From positions 1 through 38,621 of the forward strand of contig CALKXD010000274.1 of NCBI GenBank assembly GCA_938003855.1: a stretch of DNA of 38,621 nucleotides, in the 5' to 3' direction. The number at the start of each line of letters is the position of its first letter. Position 1 is the stretch's first letter. The position numbers and the translations under genes were made by a program. This stretch comes from an uncultured Granulosicoccaceae bacterium. GTDB lineage: Bacteria; Pseudomonadota; Gammaproteobacteria; Granulosicoccales; Granulosicoccaceae. Below the pieces are notes generated by a model, which was not told the origin of the DNA, did not search any database, and was given only the letters and a program-made list of their open reading frames with translations. This document shows, piece by piece, positions 3,087 through 20,238 of this stretch.

Positions 3087-3308
3087 AAGAGAGTATTCAA
3101 TCGTTAAGGCGTGACGATATCAGAAAAGCACGCGCCAGACTAACGCGGTGAACGTCAGTGCCGCACAGGACAGCCATAATCACTGACACGGTTACATCAG
3201 CCACTGGCCGGCAACCGGCGGCGCTGATTGCTTGATCCCGACCGGTCGCACGCCCATACTTTCAGGGTCTGGCAACAGTCAGCTGCCACCGCCTTTCAGA
3301 GTCACACT

Positions 3309-5096
3309 ATGTCTGCATTTACAACGCGACCGGAAATACTCGGCAACTTCGGAGTGGTAGCGTCCACCCACTGGATCGCTACCGCAGTCGGCATGAGCAT
3401 CCTTGAAAAAGGCGGCAATGCCTTCGATGCTGCGGTTGCCACCGGTTTTGTACTGCAGGTGGTCGAGCCGAATCTGAATGGTCCCGGAGGCGATATGCCA
3501 GCGGTGCTGTACAACGCTGCCCGCAACCAGGTGGAGGTGATCTGCGGACAGGGGCCGGCACCGGCAGGAGCGACCATAGAACACTATCGCTCAGAGGGGC
3601 TGGACCTGATTCCCGGTGACGGACTGCTGGCCACCGTCATACCCGGTGCTTTCGACGGTTGGATGCTGATGTTGCGCAACTACGGATCCATGCACTTGAG
3701 CGACGTTCTGGAACCCGCCATCTATTACGCCGAGCGCGGGCATCCGGTGTTGCCTCGAGTCGCGGACACCATCGCCGACATGGCTGAATTTTTCAAACGC
3801 GAATGGCCAACGTCCTATAAAACCTGGCTACCCACCGGCAACGCCCCCGTTGGCAATCAGAACATACGCAACCCGGCGCTCGCCCGCACCTGGAAAAAAA
3901 TCATTGACGAGGCTGGAATCAAATCCGATAGAGAGGAGCAGATTGAACTGGCTCGAGCGGCATTCTACAAAGGTTTTGTGGCTGAGGAGATTGATCGGTT
4001 TTTGCAAACCACAGAGGTGATGGACGGCAGCGGCAATAGGCATAAAGGTGTTTTGACCGGCGACGACATGGCCAACTGGCAGGCAACGGTAGAGTCGCCT
4101 GCCAGTTATCAGTATCAAGGCTGGCAGGTATCGAAGACCGCCGCCTGGGGCCAGGGACCGGTGTTGCTGCAATCACTGGCAATTCTCGATGGCATTGATA
4201 TCGGGTCGATGGATCCCTGCGGAGCAGACTTTGTTCACCACGTAGTCGAGACCATGAAACTGTCGTATGCAGACCGCGAGGTTTACTACGGAGATCCCGA
4301 CCATACCGACGTGCCGCTCGAGCACCTGCTCTCGAAGCGCTACAACGCACAACGCAGAGCACTGCTTTCGCACTCTGCCGACCAGACCCTGCGCCCTGGA
4401 GATATTCCGGGCTTTGAAACAGTGCGACAGCAAACACTGGCAATGCTGGCGGATATGGGGGTCTCCACAGAGAGCGTCTATGAGCCCACCATGGCGCACT
4501 TGTCCGACAAACGCGGTGACACTGTCCATATAGATGTCATAGACAAACACGGCAATATGGTCGCCGTTACTCCATCCGGTGGCTGGCTGCAATCATCACC
4601 GACCATAGAAGCACTCGGGTTTTGTCTGAACTCGCGCGCGCAAATGTACTGGCTGACCCCGGGACTGCCAACATCGCTGCACCCGGGCAAACGGCCACGC
4701 ACCACACTAACCCCGACCATTGCCATACACGAGGACGGCGCAGCGATGGCGTTTGGCACACCCGGCGGCGATCAGCAGGATCAATGGCAACTGGCGTTTT
4801 TCCTGCGTCATGTCCACCACTGCACGAATTTACAGCAGGTCATTGACCAGCCGCTTTTTCACACGACCCATTTCCCAAGCTCGTTCTATCCACGCTCACA
4901 GCAACCGGGGCACATTATGGCAGAGCGTAATTTCGGCAGCGCGGTATTAGCGGACCTTGAAGCACGCGGACACCAGGTCACGGTCGCCGACGAATGGACA
5001 ATCGGTCGTCTGACCGCCACCCGTCGTGAGCCCGACGGCTTGCTACGCGCAGCGGCAACCCCCCGCTTAATGCAAGCCTATGCAGCCGGACGATAA
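3309..5096 (+). CDS. Gamma-glutamyltransferase-family (Ntn) hydrolase, cytoplasmic
   Basis: This is an Ntn-hydrolase of the gamma-glutamyltranspeptidase family, which is made as a precursor that self-cleaves before a threonine to give large and small subunits. From the ATG at 3309 it has 595 residues. The large-subunit entry VASTHWIATAVGMSILEKGGNAFDAAVA and the motif NGPGGD are typical. The presumed cleavage/nucleophile Thr is residue 405 in KRGDTVHIDVIDKHGNMVAVT, and the glycine-rich FGTPGGDQQDQWQ loop follows near residue 484. No signal peptide is seen, unlike periplasmic glutathione-degrading GGT, so it probably acts in the cytoplasm on another gamma-glutamyl amide or acyl compound. The frame also opens at a TTG (3228), but the added 27 residues are not family-like. 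It lies 41 bases before the AcnX genes and is almost certainly co-transcribed with them. Confidence 0.92.
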   Translation: MSAFTTRPEILGNFGVVASTHWIATAVGMSILEKGGNAFDAAVATGFVLQVVEPNLNGPGGDMPAVLYNAARNQVEVICGQGPAPAGATIEHYRSEGLDLIPGDGLLATVIPGAFDGWMLMLRNYGSMHLSDVLEPAIYYAERGHPVLPRVADTIADMAEFFKREWPTSYKTWLPTGNAPVGNQNIRNPALARTWKKIIDEAGIKSDREEQIELARAAFYKGFVAEEIDRFLQTTEVMDGSGNRHKGVLTGDDMANWQATVESPASYQYQGWQVSKTAAWGQGPVLLQSLAILDGIDIGSMDPCGADFVHHVVETMKLSYADREVYYGDPDHTDVPLEHLLSKRYNAQRRALLSHSADQTLRPGDIPGFETVRQQTLAMLADMGVSTESVYEPTMAHLSDKRGDTVHIDVIDKHGNMVAVTPSGGWLQSSPTIEALGFCLNSRAQMYWLTPGLPTSLHPGKRPRTTLTPTIAIHEDGAAMAFGTPGGDQQDQWQLAFFLRHVHHCTNLQQVIDQPLFHTTHFPSSFYPRSQQPGHIMAERNFGSAVLADLEARGHQVTVADEWTIGRLTATRREPDGLLRAAATPRLMQAYAAGR

Positions 5097-5137
5097 CCCG
5101 TTACAGCCACCACCTTACAGCAGACTAAAGGCTCCTG

Positions 5138-6364
5138 ATGAAACTCACTGAAGAAGAAAACGCCATGCTGGCCGGGAAACTGGGTGAGCCACTGCGCTGG
5201 GCAATTGATCACCAGATCAAAGTCGGCACGGCTTTCGACGCCGAAGACATGGTGCCGGTCAGTCAGTCCCACATGATGGTTGACCCGGAGAGTGTCGGAG
5301 AGCCGGGTGTGCTGTTTCTGGAACAGCTGGCCGCCAATGGAGCGCACGTGCAGATCCCGATGATTACCGACCCGCGCGGTGTCGACCTCGACTACTACCA
5401 TCCGCTGGGTCAAACCGAAGAGATGGCCAACCTGGATCGCCGCACAATTGCTGCCTGCGAGCAGATGGGTATTTTAATGACGAATACCTGCATCAACTAT
5501 CAAACCATCATGTCGCCCGCCATCGGCGACAACGTCGCATTCGGTGACACCGGCGTGGTCATCTACAGCAACAGCGTTTGCGGCGCACGGTCAAATTTCG
5601 AAGGCGGCCCCTCGGCTCTAGCGGCGGGACTCACCGGTCGAACCCCGCGCTACGGTTTACACCTGGATAAGCACCGCCTGGCAACGCGCCGCTTTTCGGT
5701 AGAGGAATCGCCACAGCATCTGACCGATTGGGGAGTACTCGGTGCGACTATTGGCAAAATGGCCGGCTCCTATTGGGAAGTACCGGTGATTGAAGGGATC
5801 AACGAAGCCCCGACTTCTGACCAGCTCAAACACATGGGCGCGGCCATGGCAAGCTTCGGCTCTACGCCGCTGTTTCATATTGTCGGAGTCACACCCGAAG
5901 CACACAGCCTGGCTAGCGTCGGCGGCGACGCCCTGGCAATCGAAAAGATCACCGCGCAAGATCTGCAAACAACACTCGCGGCCTATGGCAGCACCGGTGA
6001 CCCGGTCGATGTTGTGGTGTTTGCCGCCCCACAGTTATCGTTAATCGAAATGAGTGAACTCGCCGCCCTGTGTGTCGGTAAAAAATTCAGCGTTCCATTG
6101 TTAGTGTGCACTTCACCACAGGTCTATCCCGATGCACAGCGGATGAAACTGGTCAATGCTATCGAAGATGCGGGTGGCAAAGTACTGCAAGGCACCTGCT
6201 TCTATAACCAGTATGCACGGGAAATCGGCGAAGCAAACGGCTGGACACACCTGCTGAGTAATTCGGCCAAAATCGTTAATATACTCGGCGGATACGGCTA
6301 TCAACCGGCACTGGCCAGCATGGAACGGTGTATTGATTCTGCAGTCGCGGGAGTAATCGTCTGA
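5138..6364 (+). CDS. Aconitase X large (catalytic) subunit, type II
   Basis: This is the large subunit of the split aconitase X (DUF521) family, Fe-S dehydratases of the aconitase superfamily. Characterised members dehydrate cis-3-hydroxy-L-proline to 1-pyrroline-2-carboxylate in bacteria or phosphomevalonate in archaea. The 408 residues show the family opening LTEEENAMLAGKLGEPLRWA and the block NSVCGARSNFEGGPSALAAG. Probable cluster cysteines are C118 (TNTCINYQ), C148 and C354 (GTCFY). The C-terminal SNSAKIVNILGGYGYQPAL is the expected substrate-binding segment. An AAGG motif lies 6-7 bases before the ATG. The stop overlaps the start of the small subunit by one base (TGATG), indicating translational coupling. 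In bacteria the 3-hydroxyproline reaction is the best guess, but the GGT-like neighbour is not a usual partner. Confidence 0.92.
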   Translation: MKLTEEENAMLAGKLGEPLRWAIDHQIKVGTAFDAEDMVPVSQSHMMVDPESVGEPGVLFLEQLAANGAHVQIPMITDPRGVDLDYYHPLGQTEEMANLDRRTIAACEQMGILMTNTCINYQTIMSPAIGDNVAFGDTGVVIYSNSVCGARSNFEGGPSALAAGLTGRTPRYGLHLDKHRLATRRFSVEESPQHLTDWGVLGATIGKMAGSYWEVPVIEGINEAPTSDQLKHMGAAMASFGSTPLFHIVGVTPEAHSLASVGGDALAIEKITAQDLQTTLAAYGSTGDPVDVVVFAAPQLSLIEMSELAALCVGKKFSVPLLVCTSPQVYPDAQRMKLVNAIEDAGGKVLQGTCFYNQYAREIGEANGWTHLLSNSAKIVNILGGYGYQPALASMERCIDSAVAGVIV

Positions 6365-7975: not shown

Positions 7976-9220
7976 CTATACGGCATCGTCATTTGTTCCC
8001 TGGACCAACGCCAGCAACAGTAAACCAGCGCCCGCGGCAAGCAAATAGCCAACCGCAACGACATTGACCGTTTCAGCGTAAAGTCGACCCAGTGACATTG
8101 CAAAAACTACCCCGATGGCACTCGACACTGACGCGACAATTGCCGCACCAAGTCCAGCGACCCTCCCCAGGTATTGCATAGCCAGAGAATTCAGGTTACC
8201 GAAAAGAATCCCGAAACTCGCCATGGTAAAAAACAGACAAAACATAAACACAGCGAGCGATGGCCTGCCGTCGCTCACAACACAGGCAACCAGCAACACG
8301 GAAGCAAACATCAACATACCCAACAGGCCCAATGACGACATCCCCTGCATACCGTAACGCTTCACCACTTTGCTGTTGACAAAGGCAGCACCACCGAGGC
8401 CTAAGGCCAACACCGCAAAATACATTGGAAACTGCCGGGTCACACCGTAGACATCAGTAAAGACTGCTGGCACAACACTCAAAAAAAGCAACTGGGCACC
8501 GAACACGCTACCGGCAACCGCCGTGTAGATCATCACTCGCCGGTGTCCGACAATCAATCGCGCGTTTTCCCGCAACGATGCATAACACCAGGGGATTCTA
8601 TCTTTCACCGGAAGCGTTTCGCGCTGCCTGGCACACAGCCACACACCGCTGACAGCAGCCATAAGTAAATACAGTACGAAGATCCAACGCCAGGCCAGAA
8701 AATCAAGCACCACCTGTCCGATCAGCGGCGCAAGCATTGGAACCAAAATAAAGACCATCAAAACCAGCGACATAATTCTCGCCATTTCGTCGCCTCGGTA
8801 TAAATCCCGGACCAATGCCCGGCTCGCGATCTTCGGGCCCGAAATGCCAACCCCCTGTATTACTCTGCCCAGCAACATCTGCTCAAGTGTCACTGAGGAC
8901 ATAGCGATCAGTGTACCCAGGCAATAGACAACGAGGCCGACAATAATCGATTTTTTGCGCCCGATGGCATCGGACAGTGGGCCGAAAAAAAGTTCGCCAA
9001 GTACCATTCCTGCGATGAATACTGAAATGACCCACTGAGTGTTTAAAGTGTTACCTACAGACAGTGAAGTCCCGATCGAATACAACGCTGGTAGCAACGC
9101 ATCAATACTGACCGCAGTGAGCGAGGTCATTAGTGATATCAGCGCAATAAACTCTAACTGCCCGGCTTGCCGGGTAAACTGAACTCCATGTGCTTTACAA
9201 ACTTCCATAACATCAGACAC
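7976..9220 (-). CDS. Bcr/CflA-type MFS drug efflux transporter
   Basis: This is a proton-coupled major-facilitator exporter of the DHA1 group, 414 residues with about 12 membrane segments. MFS motif A is seen as GPLSDAIGRKKS between helices 2 and 3. The stretch RALVRDLYRGDEMARIMSL, followed by VPMLAPLIGQ and AWRWIFVLY, is characteristic of Bcr/CflA proteins (bicyclomycin, sulfonamide or chloramphenicol efflux). The annotated start is a GTG at 9220; an ATG four codons further in (9208) is equally possible. It converges on the DUF6428 gene; whether it belongs to the ArsR regulon is unknown. After its TAG stop the same frame remains open for 74 further codons (see findings). The substrate cannot be read from the sequence. 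Confidence 0.9.
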   Translation of the reverse strand: MSDVMEVCKAHGVQFTRQAGQLEFIALISLMTSLTAVSIDALLPALYSIGTSLSVGNTLNTQWVISVFIAGMVLGELFFGPLSDAIGRKKSIIVGLVVYCLGTLIAMSSVTLEQMLLGRVIQGVGISGPKIASRALVRDLYRGDEMARIMSLVLMVFILVPMLAPLIGQVVLDFLAWRWIFVLYLLMAAVSGVWLCARQRETLPVKDRIPWCYASLRENARLIVGHRRVMIYTAVAGSVFGAQLLFLSVVPAVFTDVYGVTRQFPMYFAVLALGLGGAAFVNSKVVKRYGMQGMSSLGLLGMLMFASVLLVACVVSDGRPSLAVFMFCLFFTMASFGILFGNLNSLAMQYLGRVAGLGAAIVASVSSAIGVVFAMSLGRLYAETVNVVAVGYLLAAGAGLLLLALVQGTNDDAV

Positions 9221-9934: not shown

Positions 9935-10843
9935 CTAGTTTTCAACCATCGACAATGACGAGTTCCGGTGATCCCAATCATCTAGGTTTACTGCGCCACC
10001 AACACTCGCCACGGCTTTCGCGCCACAGGTATTCCCTAGCGCCAGACAGTGTTGCAGCGGTTGCTGCTGCAGCCAGCCATGAATAAATCCGGCATTAAAC
10101 GCATCACCGGCGCCAGTCGTATCTATCACCTCAACAGCGTGCGCCGGACTGGTAATGGTCGACCCCTCAAAGACAACCGCTGCACCGACCTGCCCCTGCT
10201 TGATGACACACAATGTAACATCTGATGCGTGGACCCCACGCTGGAGCAATTGATCATATTCATCCTGGTTGGGCAGAAACACATCAACGTGCCGAAGTAA
10301 CTCAGCCAGATCTGTCCGCTTGAATACCTCGTCGTCCCACCCGCAATCGACAGACACCGAAATACCCGCCGCATGCGCGTCTGTTATCAGCTGAGGATGC
10401 TCCGCTAATGAAGCCAGCTCACCAATGTGCAGATGAGAAAATCCGCGCAACTGCGACCAGTCAATTCGCTCCACGGGCAGCGCTGTTCCACTGCGTCGTG
10501 TCAGGAAGGCACGTTCTTCATTCATCGTCATGGCAACAGTAATTTGCGGGTCATCAGCCCCCTGCGCGCAATGACAATGCTCGGTACCAATACGGCTTTG
10601 CTGCAACTGTTGCTGGATGACGGCGGCAAACGGACCAGCAGGAAGCGTCGCCAACAGGGATACCCGCTGATCAAGCGCTGCCAGGTACGCGGCGGTGATA
10701 TAGGCACCACCACCGGCATGCAGAGACAACGCACTGGCGAATTGTTCTTCGCCAAGTACCGGTAGTTTACTGAGACCACTGAAAATCAAATCGCAGTACA
10801 CACGCCCGACGCAAAGCACACCGCTGCATCCGGGCATACTCAC
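9935..10843 (-). CDS. PfkB-family carbohydrate/nucleoside kinase
   Basis: This is a 302-residue ribokinase-fold kinase that should transfer phosphate from ATP to a hydroxyl of a sugar, sugar acid or nucleoside. The N-terminus has the family substrate motifs (VLCVGRVYCDLIFSGL, then HAGGGAYITAAYLAALDQ, residues 42-59). The C-terminal PfkB signature DTTGAGDAFNAGF lies at 241-253 with catalytic base Asp247. The lid region around residues 95-120 (NEERAFLTRRSG) is close to fructokinase and ketohexokinase-like members, but specificity cannot be assigned. It starts with GTG in a GTGA overlap with the stop of the ABC ATPase gene, so it is the last, translationally coupled gene of the six-gene ABC operon. 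It presumably phosphorylates the imported sugar moiety after processing. Confidence 0.92.
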   Translation of the reverse strand: MSMPGCSGVLCVGRVYCDLIFSGLSKLPVLGEEQFASALSLHAGGGAYITAAYLAALDQRVSLLATLPAGPFAAVIQQQLQQSRIGTEHCHCAQGADDPQITVAMTMNEERAFLTRRSGTALPVERIDWSQLRGFSHLHIGELASLAEHPQLITDAHAAGISVSVDCGWDDEVFKRTDLAELLRHVDVFLPNQDEYDQLLQRGVHASDVTLCVIKQGQVGAAVVFEGSTITSPAHAVEVIDTTGAGDAFNAGFIHGWLQQQPLQHCLALGNTCGAKAVASVGGAVNLDDWDHRNSSLSMVEN

Positions 10844-11898
10844 GTAATTCGCTGTCCGGAGGTTTCATCAAACAAGTGCATATCCTCAGCAGAAGCACTC
10901 AGTGACACGACGTCACCAACGGCGGGCGGCGCACGGCCGGATGCTTTGGCGATCACCTCGGTACCGTTGACCGTGACATACACCAGCGTCTCAGACCCTA
11001 GCGGTTCGAGCACATTGACAGTCCCCGCGAACAACGGTGACTCGCCACCAACGGTTAGATGATCCGGTCTAACACCCACCAGCACTGGCTGACTCTTAAG
11101 CAGAGACGATACATCAGATTTAAACGGGGCAACACCATCGAGAAACACCAGCCCGTCCCGCCAATGGCCTTTGAGTATATTCATCTCCGGCGCTCCGATG
11201 AAGCGCGCGACAAACAGATTGGCTGGCAAGTGAAACACTTCCTGCGGTGTTCCGACCTGTTGTATACGCCCCTCCTTCATAATGACAATGCGATCGGCCA
11301 TTGTCATGGCTTCGACTTGATCGTGGGTAACAAAGATAATGGTATTGCCAACCCGCTGATGCAGCTTTTTGATCTCCAGACGCATTTGCGTACGCAATTG
11401 CGCATCAAGGTTGGAAAGCGGCTCGTCAAACAGAAACACAGCCGGGTCACGAACCATGGCGCGGCCGATAGCGACGCGTTGTCTCTGCCCACCCGACAGT
11501 TGATCGGGCTTGCGATCAAGGAGTTCAGTCATGCTTAGAATCCTGGCGACTTCATCAACGCGTGCGGTTTTATCCGCCTTGCTCATCTTTGCAGTGCGCA
11601 ACCCGAAACCGATATTCCTGCGCACTGACATATGCGGGTAGATCGCATAGTTTTGAAATACCATGGCGATATCACGCTCTTTGGGTTCAAGGTTATTTAC
11701 CACCCGCTCACCAATCATCACATCGCCGGAGGTAGCACCCTCCAGCCCCGATATAATCCGCAAGCTGGTCGATTTTCCACAACCGGAAGGCCCCACCAGT
11801 ACAATAAATTCTCCGTCCGCAACGGTCAGATCAATACCGTGCAGAACCTGCGTTTTGCCATAGAACTTCACCAGATTTTGCAGTGCGACACTTGCCAT
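10840..11898 (-). CDS. Carbohydrate ABC transporter ATP-binding protein (MalK/UgpC type)
   Basis: This is the ATPase subunit of a CUT1-type importer, 352 residues. Walker A is GPSGCGKS (36-43), the Q-loop Gln is at 82 ([11 protein letters not shown]), the signature is LSGGQRQ (134-140), Walker B is VFLFDEP (154-160) and the switch His is in [11 protein letters not shown]. After about residue 235 comes the TOBE/OB-type regulatory domain ([11 protein letters not shown], then [15 protein letters not shown]) typical of MalK, UgpC and MsmX. The ATG follows the lyase stop by three bases, and the end overlaps the kinase gene by four. Such ATPases may serve several transporters, but the operon position ties it to the permeases here. 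Confidence 0.96.
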
Positions 11899-11901
11899 GG
11901 C

Positions 11902-13392
11902 TCAGGAATCCAGTAACTGTTGAAAAGCTCGGGCAAGCGCTTGACTGGCGGCAACCCGTTGCTGACGCGCGTCCTGCAATTGCAGCTTTTGTCCATTGAG
12001 CGTTGCAGCATAGGTGTTCAGAGCGCGGTCCATCGCCGCAGGTGCCGGCCCACCGGGGCGATCCCGAACAGCCACAAAATTGCGCGCGCTGACGGCATCT
12101 ATATATTCGTCTTTCGATAAATTACTGGTCGTTTCAGTGTGCCTGTCAAATGCCAGAACAAAGCTGTCGTAGCCATCCATCAATGCGGTATTTCCGGCAA
12201 TGACCGATCTGGCGGTCTCTGCAGCAATCTCGTGGGCATTCCTGAACGACAACGCATCGCGGCGAACCAGCGTATCAGCTAACTCAGTGACCGTGATACA
12301 GGCTTTATCTGCCGTGGCACAAACGCGCTCATCATCGATACTGCTAAGTGCTACCACGGTGGTGAGTAGTTCCAGCACCCGCCCCGCTGATTCAAACACC
12401 GCGTAGCCGGCTTGCTGCACTTCGCCTTCACTGTCGTTCATGTCGGTAAACGGCGTATTGTGCATCGTATTAACAATGGTATCGCAACGGCCGCAGGTGA
12501 CCGACGCCAGATGGCGCAGATGCTCGATAGGTACCGGATTGCGCTTTTGCGGCATGATCGAACTGATTTGCACCAGACTGTTTGGCACATACAGCTGCCC
12601 CACTTCGAACGCCGTCCAGAATTGCATGTCTTGTATAACGCGGCCTAAATGAAGAAACAATAGTTTGACCGCCGAGTACCAGCCGGTGATGTAATCGATA
12701 GAAGCAATGCAGCCGTAGGAATTCAGTAACGGTGACTGAAACCCCAGCAACTGCGCCATGCGATCCCTGTCGATTGCAAAACCGCTGGTGGTAATGGCAG
12801 CAGCACCCATCGGACAATGATCCAGATTGCGGTAGGCGCTCAGCAGTCGATCAGTGTCGCGCTGCAGCACTTCCGCCGCAGCGCACAAATAGTGGCCATA
12901 GGTACTCGGCTGCGCCGGCTGCCCGTGGGTGTAGGCAACAATTAACGTATCACGCTCGGTGTGTGCTTTGGCCAACACGGTATCGGTCAGCAATAACACC
13001 TGGTCAAGCAGAGTCTCTGCTTTGGTCTTAAGCACCTGCTTAAACAAGGTGTGATCCATATCGTTTCGGGACCGGGCTGTATGAAGCATGCCTGCCTTGT
13101 CTGTCCCCAGGCGTTTACCAAGCTCGGACTCAACCAGAAAAAAATAATCTTCAACCTCACCGGTATACTCAAGCGTGGCAGGATCTACCGTCGCATCGAT
13201 ATCGGCCAATGCCACGGCTATTTCACGGGCTGATTGCTCATCGACAATACCGGTATCAGCTAACATCACCAGATGGGCCTGGTTTATATCCCTGACGGGA
13301 TCGACAAAGTGTCTTTTAGCGCCTTCAAACAAAGGCGCCAGAACCGTGCGCTTGTAGACCGAATCCGGAAACTTGCTGCTGTCCTTAATCAC
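11902..13392 (-). CDS. Argininosuccinate-lyase-like C-N/C-O lyase of the aspartase/fumarase superfamily
   Basis: This is a 496-residue member of the aspartase/fumarase superfamily, cytoplasmic homotetramers that eliminate an amine or alcohol from a succinyl-type substrate to give fumarate. The three active-site regions are visible: HTARSRNDMDHT (104-115), YTHGQPAQPSTYGH (154-167) and the mobile catalytic loop SSIMPQKRNP (277-286) with the Ser base. The closest family is argininosuccinate lyase, but the T-G-RSRND-Q and THLQ-x-AQP words are altered (TARSRNDM, THGQPAQP) and the protein is longer than ArgH (about 460). It sits in the middle of a sugar-type ABC operon and not with arginine genes, so a catabolic role on an imported compound is likely. 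EDDS-lyase-like enzymes are a known precedent for ASL relatives in catabolism. The start is a GTG, four bases after the permease stop. Confidence 0.88.
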   Translation of the reverse strand: MIKDSSKFPDSVYKRTVLAPLFEGAKRHFVDPVRDINQAHLVMLADTGIVDEQSAREIAVALADIDATVDPATLEYTGEVEDYFFLVESELGKRLGTDKAGMLHTARSRNDMDHTLFKQVLKTKAETLLDQVLLLTDTVLAKAHTERDTLIVAYTHGQPAQPSTYGHYLCAAAEVLQRDTDRLLSAYRNLDHCPMGAAAITTSGFAIDRDRMAQLLGFQSPLLNSYGCIASIDYITGWYSAVKLLFLHLGRVIQDMQFWTAFEVGQLYVPNSLVQISSIMPQKRNPVPIEHLRHLASVTCGRCDTIVNTMHNTPFTDMNDSEGEVQQAGYAVFESAGRVLELLTTVVALSSIDDERVCATADKACITVTELADTLVRRDALSFRNAHEIAAETARSVIAGNTALMDGYDSFVLAFDRHTETTSNLSKDEYIDAVSARNFVAVRDRPGGPAPAAMDRALNTYAATLNGQKLQLQDARQQRVAASQALARAFQQLLDS

Positions 13393-13396
13393 GAAA

Positions 13397-14275
13397 CTAT
13401 CCCTTTAACCCGGCCATAACCACGCCTCGAATGATATAGCGTTGAAAAATCAGGAAAACGATCAGTGTCGGGATAGTCGCCAGTGCAGCACCGGTCATTA
13501 TTAACTCCCACTCCACCTGTTGCTCAACACTGAATGTTGTCAGCCCGATTGGTAGTGTGTAGAGAGACTGATCATTGGTGACAATCAACGGCCAGATAAA
13601 CGCCGTCCAGTTGCCCAGAAAAACAAAAATGGCTAATGCTGCAAGTGCCGGTTTGACTAGCGGCATTGCAACAGTCCACCAGATCTGCAGTTCGTTTAAG
13701 CCATCAATGCGTGCCGCCTCGATGAAATCGTCCGGTACGGTTTCGAAAAACTGCTTCATTAAAAATGTCCCGAAAGCAGTCATCAGGCCCGGAAACATGA
13801 TTCCCCAGTAGGAATCCAGCCAGCCAAAAGATTTGCTCATGAGATACCAGGGTATAATCAGCATCTCGGTGGGTATCATGAGTGTCGAAAGTATCGCTAT
13901 AAATACAAACATCCGTCCGGGAAAGCGGAACTTGCATAGCGTGTAGCCCACCAGACTATCAAACAGCACATTGGAGATAGTCGTAATCACGGCAATGACC
14001 ATCGAGTTGATAAACCACTGGTAAAAACGCCCGTCCTCCAGCACATAGGTATAGTTTTCTATGGTCGGCTCTTCTGGAATCAAGTTCAGATTGTAGAGCT
14101 CAAACGGATACTTGAACGATGCCGATAACATGTACGCAATCGGCATTACCATCAACACACCACCAGAGAACAACAACAACCAGCGGATATATTGACCATA
14201 GCTGCGCGGAACCGGCGGGCGTTTTACTTCCAGCAACGCATCGCTGACCGGTTTTATGGATTGCCCGGCCGCCAC
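13397..14275 (-). CDS. Carbohydrate ABC transporter permease (MalG type)
   Basis: This inner-membrane permease has 292 residues and six predicted transmembrane helices after a cytoplasmic N-terminus of about 25 residues. The first helix is WLLLFSGGVLMVMPIAYMLS. The EAA loop that docks on the ATPase reads DDFIEAARIDGLNELQIWW followed by MPLVKPALA (about residues 190-220), the MalG/UgpE pattern. The protein ends GVVMAGLKG, the typical C-terminus of CUT1 permeases. The start is a GTG one base after the stop of the partner permease gene, so translation is coupled. Confidence 0.95.
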   Translation of the reverse strand: MAAGQSIKPVSDALLEVKRPPVPRSYGQYIRWLLLFSGGVLMVMPIAYMLSASFKYPFELYNLNLIPEEPTIENYTYVLEDGRFYQWFINSMVIAVITTISNVLFDSLVGYTLCKFRFPGRMFVFIAILSTLMIPTEMLIIPWYLMSKSFGWLDSYWGIMFPGLMTAFGTFLMKQFFETVPDDFIEAARIDGLNELQIWWTVAMPLVKPALAALAIFVFLGNWTAFIWPLIVTNDQSLYTLPIGLTTFSVEQQVEWELIMTGAALATIPTLIVFLIFQRYIIRGVVMAGLKG

Positions 14276-14276
14276 T

Positions 14277-15170
14277 TCAGCGGCTCCGCAGTAAGAATAG
14301 TTGCAACAAACTGACGATCAGCAGTACTGTAAACAGTACCACCGTCTGCGCGGCTGCGTAACCCATATCGTAGCCGTTGAATGCCGTGTCATAGATCATC
14401 AGTACCATCGGCTTGGTCGAATTCAACGGCCCACCCGGGTTGTTGGTCGTCATATTAAACACATGGTCAAATATGCGTAAAAATCCGATTGATGAAAACA
14501 CCACCAGAAACACCATAGTGGGTTTTAACAGCGGCAGTGTGATCTCCGTGAGCACCGTCCAGCCAGAGACACCATCGATTCGCGCTGCTTCGTAGTAGGT
14601 TTGCGGGATAGACCGCAAGCCCGCCATAAAAATGATAATCTGAAATCCCAGTCCCGCCCAGATAGCCGGCGCCAGAATGGCTGGCAATGCGTTAGTGGTA
14701 GAGTTCAGAAACGAAATCTGCGGGATACCCAGAGTCGATAAAAAGTTATTAAACAGACCAATTGGAACCGGCTGATAAAACCATCGCCAGACCCAGGCCA
14801 TCGCTACAGCGCTGGTTAAAAATGGCAGAAAGTATAACGCTCTGATAAAACCGTGCATAAAGCGCACACGGTCCAGATGAAACGCAATGGCAAACGCAAT
14901 CAACAAGCTCACTGGCGTGCCAAGCAACAGATAGACAAAGGTGTTCTTAAAAACAATCCAGAAAACAGGATCAGCGACAAGCTTGTCAAAGTTATCAAGA
15001 CCTGCCCAGGTGCGATCACCGAGCAGGTTCCAGTCCTGAAAGGCAAGTACAATGGCATTGCCGGTAGGGTAAAAACGGATCAGCGCATAGAACACCACGG
15101 GAATCGCTAAAAAACCCCACGCCCAGGCAATCTGCTTCTGTGCAATAGACAGGTTGCGATAATAGCTCAT
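14277..15170 (-). CDS. Carbohydrate ABC transporter permease (MalF/UgpA type)
   Basis: This inner-membrane permease has 297 residues and six predicted helices, starting at AWGFLAIPVVFYALIRFYPTG. The intracellular EAA motif is YYEAARIDGVSGWTVLTEI with TLPLLKPTM (about residues 190-218). The segment FNMTTNNPGGPLNSTKPMVLMIYDTAF is the region recurrent in MalF/UgpA-like CUT1 permeases. It pairs with the next permease and is preceded by a 65-base gap after the binding-protein gene, a usual place for mRNA processing or attenuation that raises binding-protein level. Confidence 0.95.
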   Translation of the reverse strand: MSYYRNLSIAQKQIAWAWGFLAIPVVFYALIRFYPTGNAIVLAFQDWNLLGDRTWAGLDNFDKLVADPVFWIVFKNTFVYLLLGTPVSLLIAFAIAFHLDRVRFMHGFIRALYFLPFLTSAVAMAWVWRWFYQPVPIGLFNNFLSTLGIPQISFLNSTTNALPAILAPAIWAGLGFQIIIFMAGLRSIPQTYYEAARIDGVSGWTVLTEITLPLLKPTMVFLVVFSSIGFLRIFDHVFNMTTNNPGGPLNSTKPMVLMIYDTAFNGYDMGYAAAQTVVLFTVLLIVSLLQLFLLRSR

Positions 15171-15235
15171 TACCGCAAGCCGTCCTTAGCTGTCATTAGT
15201 TCATCGATCCAGTTATAGCTACCGTCAACAGAGTA

Positions 15236-16489
15236 CTACTTGTAATACTCGTCGAGTATTTTCTGCTCTTCGGCGGCCGCCGCCTTTAGGGAGTCTTCCA
15301 CCGACTGATTTTCCAGTTCAACACGGCTCAGCATATCGACCATCACCTGGCGCTGCGCACTTTCATTGGCAAACTTGGTCGTATTGGCGTATTCCAGCCC
15401 CTTGATGAACGGTCCGAATACCGGGTCAGCGCTGTTAGCTTCCGTCAAAGCGGCTGATGGTTTGGCTGGCAATTCGCCGACCGTATCAAGCCATATCTGC
15501 ATTGCTTCATCGGAGGTAACGTACTGCATAAACTTGACAGCCGCGGCATGTTTTTCATCAGTCGCCTTGGAGGTTATGGCATTGACCCAGTAAGATGAAT
15601 AGTTCGACTTAACCCCTGTCGGGCCTGCCGGTAGCTCTGCTACGCCATACTTCAGACCGCGTGTTTTGTTGAGCGCACCGATACGAAACGATCCATCTAT
15701 ATGCATACCTGCGCGTCCCGCCTTAAATGCCGCCTGGGGCTCATCCATAAAACCGGCTAAAGTCACGCCATGCTCGCTGCGCAGACCGTCATAGAATGCC
15801 AATGCACTCTGACCGGCCTCATCGGTATAGTTGACGGTTTGATAGTCGTCGTTGTAAGGCTCACCACCAAACTGTCGCACCAGCACTTCGCGGAACCAGT
15901 GATGATCCTGCGCTGTCATCCCCGTCGTGATTCCGACCGTTGTCAGATTACCTGCCGCGTCTTTCTGAGTCAGCTTTTTTGCCGTCTCGACGAGTTCGTC
16001 CAGTGTCGCCGGTGGGTTTTCGATTCCAGCATCCTTAAACAGCCGTTCGTTGTAAAACAGTGCCAGAGAACGTACAGCGGTCGGCAGCGCCATGTATTCT
16101 CCGTCGCGCTTCATCGCCTGCACCATCGGAAAAAACTCTTTTTCTATTTCTGCAGGGACAAAGGTGTCGGCCGGCAGTGGCTGAATAAGCTTGGCTTCAA
16201 CATAGTCGTTCAACCAACCATAGAATAACTGCACAACATCGGGTCCTTCACCTGCAGGAATCGCTGCTGCCACCTTCGTCCGATAGTCAGCGTAGGGGAA
16301 ATGCGTCATCTTCACCGTGATATCCGGGTTTGCTTTCTCGAAGTTTTCGATAAGCGTATCCATCGCAGTCACGCGTGCCTGAAAAAAGTACTGCCAATAT
16401 TCAATTTCAACGGCCTGTGCCTGACCGCCGGCAAATGACAAAACGCCGGCCGCAGCGGTTCCCGCTACCCAATTTCGAATTTTTCCCAC
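15236..16489 (-). CDS. ABC transporter extracellular solute-binding protein (family 1)
   Basis: This periplasmic binding protein captures the operon's substrate. I choose the GTG at 16489 because an AGGAGAA ribosome site lies four bases before it; a TTG at 16510 in the same frame would give seven extra residues containing that site. From the GTG the 417-residue protein starts MGKIRNWVAGTAAAGVLSFA and has a Sec signal peptide likely cut after GGQAQA, before VEIEYW. The mature part has the family-1 motifs EIEYWQYFFQARVTAMDTL, EKANPDITVKMTHFPYADY, PTAVRSLALFYNERLFKDAG and PGYV-like SNYSSYWVNAI. This resembles UgpB/MalE-like proteins for oligosaccharides or glycerol phosphodiesters. It is the first gene of the minus-strand operon and faces the ROK regulator gene. 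Confidence 0.94.
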   Translation of the reverse strand: MGKIRNWVAGTAAAGVLSFAGGQAQAVEIEYWQYFFQARVTAMDTLIENFEKANPDITVKMTHFPYADYRTKVAAAIPAGEGPDVVQLFYGWLNDYVEAKLIQPLPADTFVPAEIEKEFFPMVQAMKRDGEYMALPTAVRSLALFYNERLFKDAGIENPPATLDELVETAKKLTQKDAAGNLTTVGITTGMTAQDHHWFREVLVRQFGGEPYNDDYQTVNYTDEAGQSALAFYDGLRSEHGVTLAGFMDEPQAAFKAGRAGMHIDGSFRIGALNKTRGLKYGVAELPAGPTGVKSNYSSYWVNAITSKATDEKHAAAVKFMQYVTSDEAMQIWLDTVGELPAKPSAALTEANSADPVFGPFIKGLEYANTTKFANESAQRQVMVDMLSRVELENQSVEDSLKAAAAEEQKILDEYYK

Positions 16490-16654
16490 ATGCTTCTCCT
16501 GGTTCAACAACCCGACCCGCGGGCTGATTATGCGATTTTTAAGCGCGGAGAAAACGCGCTGTTATGACTTCCGTTACTGACCACTCTGACGTTGCCACTC
16601 AAGTATTAACTCAATTTATTTGAATTATCAAGAAATTTGATTGAAACTGCCCGA
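16490..16654. promoter_or_regulatory. Divergent promoter region with candidate ROK operator
   Basis: The 165-base gap separates the ABC operon (minus) and the ROK/PIG-L operon (plus). It becomes AT-rich toward the ROK gene, where 16611-16644 carries an imperfect dyad with ends TCAAT and ATTGA and inner TTATTT / AAATTT half-sites, resembling the spacing of NagC/Mlc-type ROK operators. No consensus -35/-10 stands out. Confidence 0.45.
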
Positions 16655-17848
16655 ATGAAATCGATATCACCCATCCATGTCGGCTCTAATGCCGAACGCA
16701 CCAAACTTCACAACCGGCAGGTAGTGCTGCAATGCCTACGCACCTTGCAAACCGCAGGCAGGGCGCAAATAGCGCGCGCCTCAAAGTTAAGTACACAAAC
16801 CGTCAGCAACATTATCAGTGAGCTGCAATCGGAGGGCTGGCTGCTTGAAGCCGGTCGTGTCTCAAAGGGGCGGGGTCTGCCGGCAATTCAGTACAGCATT
16901 CGCCCCACCGCCGCCACCGCGCTGGGCATGGAGATCCGATCTGATGCCGTATTCGCTGCGGTAGTCGATCTGGCCGGCAATACACTTGCAAGTGACCGCA
17001 CACCAGTCACTGACTCCAGACCCGAGCGCGTCGCAGCGGCCGTCTCAAAAATGAAAAGCTCGGTCATCGACAAAGCAAAGATACCGGCGAGCTCGTTGCT
17101 CGGAGCCGGTATCGTTATGCCCGGCCCGTTTGGTCGCGTGGGACTGTCCGACGCCGGCCAATCAACACTGGTGGGATGGCACGATGTCGATCCGCAGGCC
17201 TTGTTCTCCAGGGCATTGAACATTCCCGTGGTGATCGAGCACGATACCATTGCCGCCGTGTTTGCCGAACGCGTCAGCGGCCACGCCATTGACCTGGACT
17301 CCTATGCATTTATCTATTTCGGCACAGGCATCGGCCTGGGTGTGATGGCAAACGGCCAGGTACTGCGCGGAGCGTTTGGCAATGCCGGCGAGTTGGGACA
17401 TGTCGTTATAGAGCGGGGGGGCAACCCGTGCGCCTGTGGCAATTCAGGTTGCCTTGAAACTTACGTCAGCCGATTCTCCCTGCATAAACACCTGGCAAAA
17501 AACAACATCTATGTCAGCGACGGCAACGAGCTTGAAGCGTTATACGACGCTGGCAACCCCCATCTCAATGACTGGCTGGATCATGCCAGTGCACCATTAG
17601 CGCAAGTTATCGGCATGGTGGAAAACCTGTTTGATCCGCAATCTATAATTCTGGGCGGTGCCATGCCGGCTCCGCTGCTCGACTACTTAATCAGCCAGAT
17701 AACACTGGCGCCGGGCTCCATCGCCGATCGCAGCGATCGACTAACACCCAGGGTAGTGCGCGGGAAGTCCGGTCGAATGACTGCGGCATTGGGTGGCGCT
17801 GCAATAATAATCAATGAGCTCTTTGTGCCGCGAATCGCTGCAGCCTGA
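16655..17848 (+). CDS. ROK-family transcriptional regulator (NagC/XylR type)
   Basis: This is a 397-residue protein (from the ATG at 16655) with an N-terminal winged helix (NRQVVLQCLRTLQTAGRAQIARASKLSTQTVSNII in two parts, about residues 20-55, and GWLLEAGRVSKGRG as the wing) and a C-terminal sugar-kinase-like ROK domain. The ROK zinc motif is complete: CACGNSGCLE with cysteines near 258, 260 and 265. The glycine loop FGTGIGLGVM is present. Such proteins are usually repressors released by a sugar or sugar phosphate. An alternative TTG start at 16637 adds six residues. It is divergent from the ABC operon and 20 bases ahead of the PIG-L gene, so it is the probable local regulator of both. Confidence 0.94.
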   Translation: MKSISPIHVGSNAERTKLHNRQVVLQCLRTLQTAGRAQIARASKLSTQTVSNIISELQSEGWLLEAGRVSKGRGLPAIQYSIRPTAATALGMEIRSDAVFAAVVDLAGNTLASDRTPVTDSRPERVAAAVSKMKSSVIDKAKIPASSLLGAGIVMPGPFGRVGLSDAGQSTLVGWHDVDPQALFSRALNIPVVIEHDTIAAVFAERVSGHAIDLDSYAFIYFGTGIGLGVMANGQVLRGAFGNAGELGHVVIERGGNPCACGNSGCLETYVSRFSLHKHLAKNNIYVSDGNELEALYDAGNPHLNDWLDHASAPLAQVIGMVENLFDPQSIILGGAMPAPLLDYLISQITLAPGSIADRSDRLTPRVVRGKSGRMTAALGGAAIIINELFVPRIAAA

Positions 17849-17868
17849 ACACTGACAGGGAAACATCA

Positions 17869-20238
17869 ATGACTGAGACCGCCCGCCAACGGATTATCGC
17901 ACAACAATTCTCACCGCGAATTCTAGAACTGTGGCAAGCACTGCAGGCGCTGAAAAGCTGCGTGTCTTTTATGAATACCGGCGCTCATCCCGATGATGAA
18001 ACCTCCGCGATGCTCGCGGCACTCAGCCTGCGAGACGGGATCAAAATCTCCTATGCCTGCGCCAACCGCGGCGAAGGTGGTCAAAACGATATTGGCGCTC
18101 AGACAACCTGTGATCTCGGTGTGCTGCGCACCGCAGAGATGGAACAAGCCGCAGACGCATTGAACTTAAACATGTACTGGCTAAGTGAGTCGCCGGAGGA
18201 CTCAATCTTTGATTTCGGTTTTTCCAAAAGCGGTGTTGAAACACTAGCCAAGTGGGGCTACCAACGTACCCTGCTCCGCTTTGTAGAAATCGTACGCCTG
18301 GAAAAACCCGACATCCTCTGCCCGACGTTTCTAGATATACCCGGACAACACGGCCACCACCGCGCGATGACACAACTGGCGCACACCGTCGTCGTCGCAG
18401 CAGCAGACGCGAGCTTCAATGGTGTAACACTTGCGCCCTGGCAAATTAAAAAAATGTACCTTCCTGCCTGGAGTGGTGCCGGTGACGCTTATGATGACGA
18501 TCTTCCCCCGCCTGCCGCTACGCTGGTGGTTCAAGCCAGCGGCGAAGATCCGGTCAGTGGCTGGACCTACGAGCAGATCGGCCAGCACTCCCGACGGTTC
18601 CATCTGACACAGGGCATGGGGCGCTGGGTGTCTCCCGGCCAGGAGCGGAATTGGCCTCTGCACCTGTGTTACTCACACACTGCCGAGACCGACTCATCTC
18701 TGATGTCAGCGCTACCGGCAACCCTTGACCGGCTTGCCGCCTTTGCCAACGCACCGGCAATAGCCGCTACTCTGGAACAAGCACAATCTGAAATCACCAG
18801 AGCACTGGATGCTTTTCCCGCCTGCGACAAAGTTCGCAAAGCCGCATCAAGGGCCTTAACCCTTATCCGCGACGCCGAAAAAAACTGTCCACAGACCGCC
18901 AGAGCCGAGGTCATACACCGACTTCAGGATAAATCCAACCAACTGGCCCGGGTCATCAGACTGGCCTCACGTGTCAGTGCACGCGGATGGCTGGCCACAG
19001 ACACATTGCACACTGGCGACTCCATTCCTCTGCAGCTGGAGTCAACCAGCGGCGACGCCGATGCACTTGAGGTATCGATTCAGGTACCGGCCGGCTGGAC
19101 ACACACGGGTAACAGCGTAACCGCTACCGATGCGGCACAATCGCATAACAATTATCCAGCCATTTACCAGCCTCACAACCCTGCCGATCCATCACTGCAG
19201 GTAAGCCTGACTGTCGACGGCCAGACATCCGTCACAAACATAGCACTGGAATCAAGCCCGCTGCTGCTGCCGGCGTTGTCTGCCAGGCTTGACCCTGAGT
19301 CCGCCGTGCTGAATACCCTAACCGACAACCGGAAAATCACACTGACTCTCGGCGATCAGCATCCGGCGAGCGCCACAGCCTCGTTAAAACTTCCAGACGG
19401 GTGGCGCAGTGAACGCAGCGGCAATGGCTTTGACATTCACGCCCCTGACAACATCGCCCCCGGACTGTATACAGCAGCACTGCTACTCGACGGACAACCG
19501 GCCAGTGTCGCCAACGTATTTAAATACCCGCATATAAAACCGTGCATGCGCACCTATCCCGCAGAGTTGTCCATCAGAGTACTTGATGTGGCCATCCCGG
19601 ATGTCCGCATCGCCTACGTCGGCGGTGGCAATGACCGCGTGCCACACTGGCTCTCGACAATCGGCCTGTCCATCACCGAACTCACCGATGCAGACCTTAC
19701 AAGTGACTCGGCACTGGCACTGTTCGATACCTTGATCATCGGGCTGTTCGCCATACGCACCAGACCGACGCTACAACACATCATACCCGCCATTCACGAC
19801 TGGGTAGAGCGCGGCGGCAATCTGCTTACGCTGTATCATCGACCCTGGGACGACTGGAACGAACACACCATTCCGCCAAAGCGCCTCCGTATAGGAAAGC
19901 CCTCTCTGCGCTGGCGCGTCACCGATGAAAACGCCACGGTGACGCACTTGCTACCAAAGCACTCACTGCTGAACATCCCCAACCGGATCAATGATTCAGA
20001 CTGGCAACACTGGCACAAGGAGCGCGGACTCTATTTTGCCAGCGAATGGGACGACAGCTATGAGGCCTTATTATCCATGGCCGATCCAGATGAAGCCGCG
20101 CATCATGGTGCGCTAGTCAGTGCACGCATTGGGCGGGGCCGGCACACGCATACCTCGTTAATCCTGCACCACCAGATGGAAAAACTGATCCCCGGTGGTT
20201 TCAGACTGATGGCAAACCTTGTCGCCGGATCAGCCTAG
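17869..20238 (+). CDS. PIG-L family deacetylase with C-terminal amidotransferase-like domain
   Basis: This is a large (789-residue) cytoplasmic protein whose first 260 residues form a PIG-L/LmbE zinc deacetylase domain. The metal motif AHPDDE is at 39-44, NRGEGGQND at 66-74 and the third ligand region is GQHGHHR at 159-165. PIG-L enzymes remove N-acetyl groups from GlcNAc-type conjugates (BshB, MshB, DacB). Residues about 380-545 look like beta-sandwich domains, and 570-789 resemble a class-I glutamine-amidotransferase/ThuA-like fold (IRIAYVGG-type start VRIAYVGGGNDRVPHWL, then FDTLIIGLFAIR, WVERGGNLLTLYH). No signal peptide is present. It follows the ROK gene by 20 bases with an AGGGAAA ribosome site. 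Its role is probably to deacylate the compound imported by the facing ABC system. Confidence 0.9.
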   Translation: MTETARQRIIAQQFSPRILELWQALQALKSCVSFMNTGAHPDDETSAMLAALSLRDGIKISYACANRGEGGQNDIGAQTTCDLGVLRTAEMEQAADALNLNMYWLSESPEDSIFDFGFSKSGVETLAKWGYQRTLLRFVEIVRLEKPDILCPTFLDIPGQHGHHRAMTQLAHTVVVAAADASFNGVTLAPWQIKKMYLPAWSGAGDAYDDDLPPPAATLVVQASGEDPVSGWTYEQIGQHSRRFHLTQGMGRWVSPGQERNWPLHLCYSHTAETDSSLMSALPATLDRLAAFANAPAIAATLEQAQSEITRALDAFPACDKVRKAASRALTLIRDAEKNCPQTARAEVIHRLQDKSNQLARVIRLASRVSARGWLATDTLHTGDSIPLQLESTSGDADALEVSIQVPAGWTHTGNSVTATDAAQSHNNYPAIYQPHNPADPSLQVSLTVDGQTSVTNIALESSPLLLPALSARLDPESAVLNTLTDNRKITLTLGDQHPASATASLKLPDGWRSERSGNGFDIHAPDNIAPGLYTAALLLDGQPASVANVFKYPHIKPCMRTYPAELSIRVLDVAIPDVRIAYVGGGNDRVPHWLSTIGLSITELTDADLTSDSALALFDTLIIGLFAIRTRPTLQHIIPAIHDWVERGGNLLTLYHRPWDDWNEHTIPPKRLRIGKPSLRWRVTDENATVTHLLPKHSLLNIPNRINDSDWQHWHKERGLYFASEWDDSYEALLSMADPDEAAHHGALVSARIGRGRHTHTSLILHHQMEKLIPGGFRLMANLVAGSA

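Follow-up and report, generated by a model that had tools for sequence, protein, structure and literature searches.

Which compound is taken up and broken down by a gene cluster that joins a sugar-type ABC importer to a lyase of the argininosuccinate lyase (ArgH) superfamily and an amide hydrolase of the PIG-L family? We addressed this question for positions 9935-20238 of contig CALKXD010000274.1 (assembly GCA_938003855.1) from an uncultured Granulosicoccaceae bacterium; the whole analysed stretch of 38,621 nucleotides is called the window. The cluster comprises eight genes, in which an operon for a CUT1-type ABC importer, the lyase and a PfkB kinase is divergent from the genes for a ROK regulator and the PIG-L protein. 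The best explanation is an uptake and breakdown pathway for an N-acylated malyl (or succino) glucosaminide, which we hold with evenly balanced confidence; the products of the pathway are quite probably glucosamine plus fumarate. The gene set, which is hidden behind an argH label, would then stand for a catabolic pathway, not described so far, that acts on a glucosamine conjugate. Families were assigned to the encoded proteins by Pfam and NCBIfam profile searches, with the following result:

9935-10843, minus strand: sugar kinase of the PfkB family, proposed to phosphorylate glucosamine (or a glucosaminide) (PF00294, 9.5e-34)
10840-11898, minus strand: ABC importer ATPase, MalK/UgpC type (NF008653 UgpC, 489 bits, above the cut-off)
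11902-13392, minus strand: predicted fumarate-releasing lyase of the ArgH/EDDS (ethylenediamine disuccinate) lyase superfamily (PF00206, ASL_C2)
13397-14275, minus strand: ABC permease 2, MalG/UgpE type (PF00528)
14277-15170, minus strand: ABC permease 1, MalF/UgpA type (PF00528)
15236-16489, minus strand: periplasmic solute-binding protein (SBP), CUT1/MalE-UgpB type (SBP_bac_8, 5e-43)
16490-16654, no strand: divergent promoter region of 165 nucleotides (sequence and intergenic comparison)
16655-17848, plus strand: ROK-family transcriptional regulator, NagC/Mlc-like, start codon ATG at 16655 (PF00480, 1.4e-42)
17869-20238, plus strand: fusion of a PIG-L/LmbE amide hydrolase with beta domains and a ThuA/GATase1-like domain (PF02585, 1.6e-14)

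The minus-strand genes are tightly packed: those for PfkB and the ATPase overlap by 4 nucleotides, and the ATPase-lyase, lyase-permease 2 and permease 2-permease 1 gaps measure 3, 4 and 1 nucleotides, the only larger gap being the 65 nucleotides between permease 1 and the SBP. The start of the SBP was set at GTG 16489, giving a protein of 417 residues that matches the length of its homologues and leaving 165 nucleotides up to the ATG of the ROK gene. A preliminary description of this DNA, made from the letters alone, had given the same gene families, strands, packing and 165-base divergent promoter, and all of these agree with the open reading frames and the profile searches. The importer is of the CUT1 type, with a SBP_bac_1/8 solute-binding protein, two MalF/MalG-type permeases and a MalK-type ATPase carrying a TOBE domain. 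The N-terminal winged helix-turn-helix of the ROK protein gave only a weak MarR match, below the Pfam cut-off, and the PfkB protein reached no NCBIfam equivalog cut-off.

Co-occurrence and synteny were computed for related loci. Five lyases used as queries yielded 80 loci, mainly from Rhodobacterales and Hyphomicrobiales with a few from gammaproteobacteria and Bacillota. The window organism, of the Granulosicoccaceae-like group, has 'Chromatiales bacterium ex Bugula neritina' and Granulosicoccus as relatives. In the 62 loci with sufficient flank, tblastn detected the SBP, both permeases, the lyase and the ATPase in every case (62/62 each), PIG-L in 61, ROK in 57 and PfkB in 45. The gene order is retained across about 80 species, which is far beyond chance. 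Within the Roseibium marinum family, the lyase clade and the PIG-L family occur in the identical 17 of 87 genomes (Fisher 2e-18, relatedness ignored), and five of the 57 nearest genomes have the lyase, each of them together with PIG-L. More distantly, the gene set is found again in Bacillota (35% identity): ROK, PIG-L, SBP, two permeases, PfkB and lyase genes are contiguous in one locus (L126, about 25-50% identity), and the set is also seen in a second one (L127). On plasmids of Deinococcus ficus and D. deserti, the genes for ROK, the lyase, SBP and two permeases are joined by one for a stand-alone PIG-L and one for a carbohydrate kinase. Rare variants of the gene set are L096, Roseomonas and possibly Bosea. 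Genome G004 seemed to have PIG-L but not the lyase; it is no clean exception, because the end of the contig cuts off the SBP gene.

The locus is thus a genuine conserved catabolic gene set across Pseudomonadota, Bacillota and Deinococcota, in which PIG-L and the lyase are inseparable partners. The preliminary description had proposed one coherent catabolic locus, had suggested a search for joint occurrence of the two enzymes and had named relatives lacking either of them as the finding that would speak against it; the comparison bears the proposal out, with such relatives confined to the rare variants.

The clade to which the lyase belongs is annotated as argH in RefSeq, and the window protein scores 280 bits against TIGR00838 (argH), a borderline value for a cut-off of 279.5. 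It might accordingly be taken for a true argininosuccinate lyase that joined an ordinary sugar operon by accident or to salvage arginine, all the more as its own assembly (G000) yielded no second ArgH. Identity, however, is only about 27% to true ArgH and about 30% to EDDS lyase, as against 57% within ArgH. In an AlphaFold model (predicted local distance difference test score, 92), EDDS lyase (PDB 6g3d) was the closest structure, followed by ArgH/delta-crystallin. The clade invariantly retains the SS-x-MPxKxN catalytic loop and the TH and SRND motifs (S277, S278, M280, K283, N285; T155, H156; S108-D111), so that, judged by these residues, it keeps the part of the ArgH active site that handles fumarate. 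We compared 86 sequences, drawn from the clade and from the deep-branching Bacillota group related to it, with 26 ArgH sequences. V287, H291, N312, D317, N319 and Q326, on the leaving-group side, are fixed in 86/86, where ArgH has D, L, G/S, Y, K and E (D, L, K and E in 26/26, Y in 25/26). Moreover, true ArgH proteins scoring above 540 bits are additionally present in 41 of 44 carrier genomes, and the clade lyase is always found with the ABC operon. The residues and this coexistence indicate that the lyase is not ArgH and differs from it in specificity, leaving arginine salvage very improbable. Relatedly, the preliminary description had treated a genuine ArgH as fatal to its proposal. The window genome itself, although rated 98% complete, contains neither a canonical argH nor hemC; hemC adjoins argH in a sister genome and is missing too, and the absence therefore looks like an assembly gap, probably one missing segment. 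A candidate for the own-genome ArgH (L001) was rejected as PurB. For annotation, V287/H291/D317/N319 as opposed to D/L/Y/K of ArgH provides a rule by which the labels can be corrected.

The similarity to the nearest solved structure raises a further possibility, the catabolism of aminopolycarboxylates of the EDDS or aspergillomarasmine type, which the preliminary description had listed as a speculative candidate. In EDDS lyase, D290 and Y320 adjoin the substrate (PMC12363623). These amine-side residues align with V287 and D317 of the window lyase, and a sugar-type ABC importer, PIG-L, an amino-sugar kinase and a NagB deaminase have no place in such a pathway; we consider it scarcely credible, and the candidate is not supported. 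Q159 of EDDS lyase corresponds to H in the window lyase, as in ArgH.

Outside the conserved loci, distant lyases of L105 and Natribaculum adjoin flavoproteins of the fumarate-reductase type, in agreement with fumarate as the product. More distant lyases occur in L166 and L170 (haloarchaeal plasmids) and in L122 and L124 (Bacillota), and their contexts include mandelate-racemase-type enzymes with MFS transporters, fumarate-reductase-like subunits and amidohydrolases. This superfamily branch seems to hold several further fumarate lyases labelled argH. The tree carries FastTree support values and is read as unrooted with respect to the clade, the deep Bacillota group and ArgH plus EDDS lyase.

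What remains of the substrate once fumarate has left is suggested most strongly by variants of the operon. Four loci (L083, L088, L095 and L100) have no PfkB gene and carry instead a gene for a ROK sugar kinase followed by a homologue of NagB, the glucosamine-6-phosphate deaminase. The NagB homologues of L083, L095 and L100 were scanned, and that of L095 exceeds the TIGR00502 nagB cut-off. At the same place, Roseomonas haemaphysalidis has a ROK kinase followed by NagB-II (NF046059, 1.8e-93, below the cut-off), a SIS-type glucosamine-6-phosphate deaminase that is not homologous to NagB. Since two non-homologous deaminases for the same reaction occupy the same place, the product of the shared steps is very probably glucosamine and then glucosamine-6-phosphate. 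In the window genome, NagB is encoded elsewhere and scores above the cut-off. Absence of NagB from many carriers was at first counted as evidence to the contrary, and this was dropped after SIS-type GlmS-C-like candidates had been found in most of them. The locus had also been called self-contained. It is coherent, but the gene for the last enzyme, the deaminase, mostly lies outside it, and some relatives lack PfkB or ROK.

Glucosamine and fumarate would also arise from a Heyns-type, N-linked substrate such as N-(2-deoxyglucos-2-yl)-aspartate or an acylated relative, which a C-N lyase would split directly. C-N cleavage is the usual reaction of the superfamily, as in ArgH and EDDS lyase, and NagB or NagB-II would follow naturally. 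Also in its favour, a 32% identical lyase paralogue of Cereibacter sphaeroides (plasmid pB, L167, 19 kb) lies in an Amadori-like neighbourhood. That paralogue is surrounded by genes for an asparaginase, an amino-acid ABC importer, a fructoselysine-6-kinase-like protein and a deglycase-like SIS protein, a set that looks like a fructosyl-asparagine/aspartate (Amadori) pathway with a fumarate lyase. For the locus in the window, however, such a substrate would offer no obvious amide to PIG-L, the most tightly linked partner, and the amine-adjacent acid of EDDS lyase (D290), conserved in ArgH, is invariably V287 in the clade. We regard this alternative as a serious competitor, if a rather unlikely one.

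The PIG-L protein is the second enzyme on which the proposed N-acylated glucosaminide rests. It has 789 residues in three parts, namely a LmbE domain, beta domains and a ThuA/GATase1-like domain. Residues 30-285 matched the structures of MshB (Z 21.8), LnmX, diacetylchitobiose deacetylase and BshB (Z 18.5), and residues 577-789 gave ThuA/GATase1-like matches with Z of 15-17. All 31 homologues compared keep the zinc ligands H40, D43 and H164 and the general base D42; H40-P41-D42-D43 with H164, at a spacer of about 120, agrees with the LmbE zinc motif, described as HXDD plus H with a spacer of 97-148 (PMC4101496). Every LmbE enzyme characterised by 2014 has an N-acetyl- or N-acyl-glucosamine as its substrate (PMC4101496). 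No equivalog cut-off for MshB, BshB or Mca was reached: the window protein scored 22 bits, and the stand-alone PIG-L of Deinococcus, whose best matches were MshB at 161 bits (cut-off 224), Mca at 124 and BshB2 at 84, also fell short. By these comparisons, the PIG-L domain is MshB/BshB-like. In 24 of the 80 loci and in G004 (the window is not among them), the gene next after PIG-L encodes a permease of the DMT/EamA family, the two genes overlapping at their ends or nearly so (e.g. L036:2322-3233, L046:990-1862 and L095:2161-3051); the permease may serve the export of a product, e.g. an amino acid.

The same resemblance to MshB and Mca allows a different assignment, in which PIG-L would act like Mca or Bca on succinated mycothiol or bacillithiol, the lyase would be an S-(2-succino) lyase for the cysteine part, and the glucosaminide would pass to the kinase. 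There is an analogy in 2SL, a lyase of the superfamily that acts on N-acetyl-2-succinocysteine and is encoded in an ABC-transporter operon (PMC9706529), and the DMT permease coupled to PIG-L in 24 loci could export an amino acid. Against this, the yxe-type acetyltransferase and deacylase are absent from the conserved gene set of the loci, and the kinase and deaminase variants show the sugar to be a main product. Breakdown of S-succinated thiols thus appears quite improbable. A gene of the VOC/glyoxalase family lies within the locus in a few Rhodobacteraceae (L074:5994-6485, directly before the lyase gene, L043 and L070); it gave only weak matches to Fos-type thiol transferases and was not used as evidence for a thiol.

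For the preferred N-acylated malyl (or succino) glucosaminide, we infer the substrate, the reactions and their sequence as follows. The CUT1 importer would take up a small glucosamine conjugate that is N-acylated and also carries a malyl (or succino) substituent. PIG-L would hydrolyse the amide at the 2-amino group, removing either the acetyl of a GlcNAc-X (N-acetylglucosamine conjugate) or a cysteinyl group as in bacillithiol. The ArgH-like lyase would, before or after this step, release the C4-dicarboxylate as fumarate by beta-elimination, leaving glucosamine, which PfkB, or elsewhere the ROK kinase, would convert to glucosamine-6-phosphate. Finally, NagB or NagB-II, encoded within the operon or at another site of the genome, would yield fructose-6-phosphate and ammonia. 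An N-acylated sugar with a C4-dicarboxylate group, as proposed in the preliminary description, remains the best reading of the gene set, and GlcNAc-malate, one of its two speculative candidates, now leads because the NagB, NagB-II and ROK-kinase variants indicate glucosamine.

Bacillithiol (Cys-GlcN-malate, where GlcN is glucosamine), which has GlcNAc-malate and GlcN-malate as precursors, is a natural glucosamine compound with both N-acyl and malyl groups, and the malate of bacillithiol is L-malate, the stereochemistry used by the lyase superfamily. BshC was found in none of 40 carrier genomes in a search with positive controls, and a substrate of the bacillithiol type would therefore have to be supplied by other bacteria. 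Many bacteria of different kinds make bacillithiol (PMC6282198). Bacillithiol, GlcN(Ac)-malate precursors or breakdown products from other bacteria are the best candidate for the natural substrate class; that the substrate belongs specifically to the bacillithiol family we put slightly short of an even chance. Somewhat more tentatively, the locus may encode a dedicated bacillithiol-degradation pathway in non-producers that import bacillithiol (or GlcNAc- or GlcN-malate), with PIG-L for the cysteine or acetyl amide and a new O-malyl-glucosaminide fumarate lyase that would feed fumarate and glucosamine-6-phosphate into central metabolism. If bacillithiol or its malate-linked precursors are indeed the substrate, this would be the first known pathway devoted to breaking down a thiol that ranks among the most widespread in bacteria, and the fumarate lyases would gain a member for a sugar-malate ether. 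Searches of the open-access literature on bacillithiol catabolism, GlcN-malate uptake and PIG-L together with argininosuccinate lyase turned up no account of the pathway.

Several observations weigh against the malyl glucosaminide. We found no report of a lyase from this clade that eliminates at the C-O bond of a sugar malyl ether, and no thiol-specific gene is consistently linked to the locus. Among some 80 loci, only 4 have NagB in the operon and a single other one has NagB-II, and PfkB has no glucosamine-kinase signature. L096 and the Roseomonas locus with the ROK kinase and NagB-II have no PIG-L nearby. The likeness of the window PIG-L to MshB and Mca is only at the level of the fold, with about 20% identity.

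Regulation is suggested by the divergent promoter. We computed a comparison of the divergent regions of 61 loci, with dinucleotide shuffles as the control. The homologous promoters share a palindrome, TTAACTCAA-N5-TTGA(GTTAA), the core of which is present in 44 of the 61 regions as against a mean of 0.4 in the shuffles. It is often doubled with a spacing of 17 bp, at 44 and 27 bases upstream of the ROK start. In the window the two copies are:

16606-16627, no strand: operator palindrome 1, TTAACTCAA-TTTAT-TTGAATTA, proposed ROK site (motif of 44/61 loci)
16623-16645, no strand: operator palindrome 2, with the core TCAA-GAAAT-TTGA at 16628-16640, 17 bp from palindrome 1 (spacing kept in many relatives)

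Position and conservation suggest that the ROK protein binds the tandem palindrome, and it would repress both operons through these TTAACTCAA-N5-TTGA sites, with relief of repression when the compound or a sugar derived from it is present. A second sub-group (Martelella, Aminobacter and others), in which ROK is about 40% identical, has no such palindrome.

Beyond the locus, genes for gamma-glutamyltransferase-like, aconitase-X-like and MFS transporter proteins flank it in the window (3228-6364 and 7976-9220). The same flank is present in the sister genome (L023/L027) and not in other families. In Granulosicoccaceae relatives, a gene for a HpcH/HpaI aldolase or a D-amino-acid-dehydrogenase-like FAD enzyme directly follows the operon (L034:10887-11687, L041:13483-14742 and L045:13485-14747).

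Several known systems resemble parts of the locus. The EDDS lyase of Chelativorans sp. BNC1 shares with the window lyase the ArgH superfamily, the residues for fumarate binding and catalysis and a catabolic context, but belongs to a chelator operon rather than a sugar operon and has D290/Y320 where V and D are found here. ArgH has the fold, the catalytic loop and the TH and SRND motifs in common with the lyase; it differs in the six leaving-group-side residues and coexists with the clade lyase in most carriers. MshB, BshB, Mca and Bca share the PIG-L domain and the HPDD-plus-H zinc motif, whereas the window protein is a large fusion in a catabolic operon, with carriers that do not have BshC. 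In the 2SL loci of Enterococcus italicus and Dickeya dadantii (PMC9706529), a fumarate-releasing class I lyase is likewise encoded in an ABC catabolic operon with a deacylase; compared by gene context, those loci are of the yxe type, with an acetyltransferase, and serve N-acetyl-S-succinocysteine, in contrast to the sugar kinase, ROK and PIG-L found here. Finally, operons for GlcNAc and glucosamine (NagK/NagB/NagB-II, NagC type) have in common with this gene set a ROK regulator, a sugar kinase and the NagB or NagB-II of the variant loci, from which it differs in the additional lyase and PIG-L fusion and in a kinase that is often PfkB.

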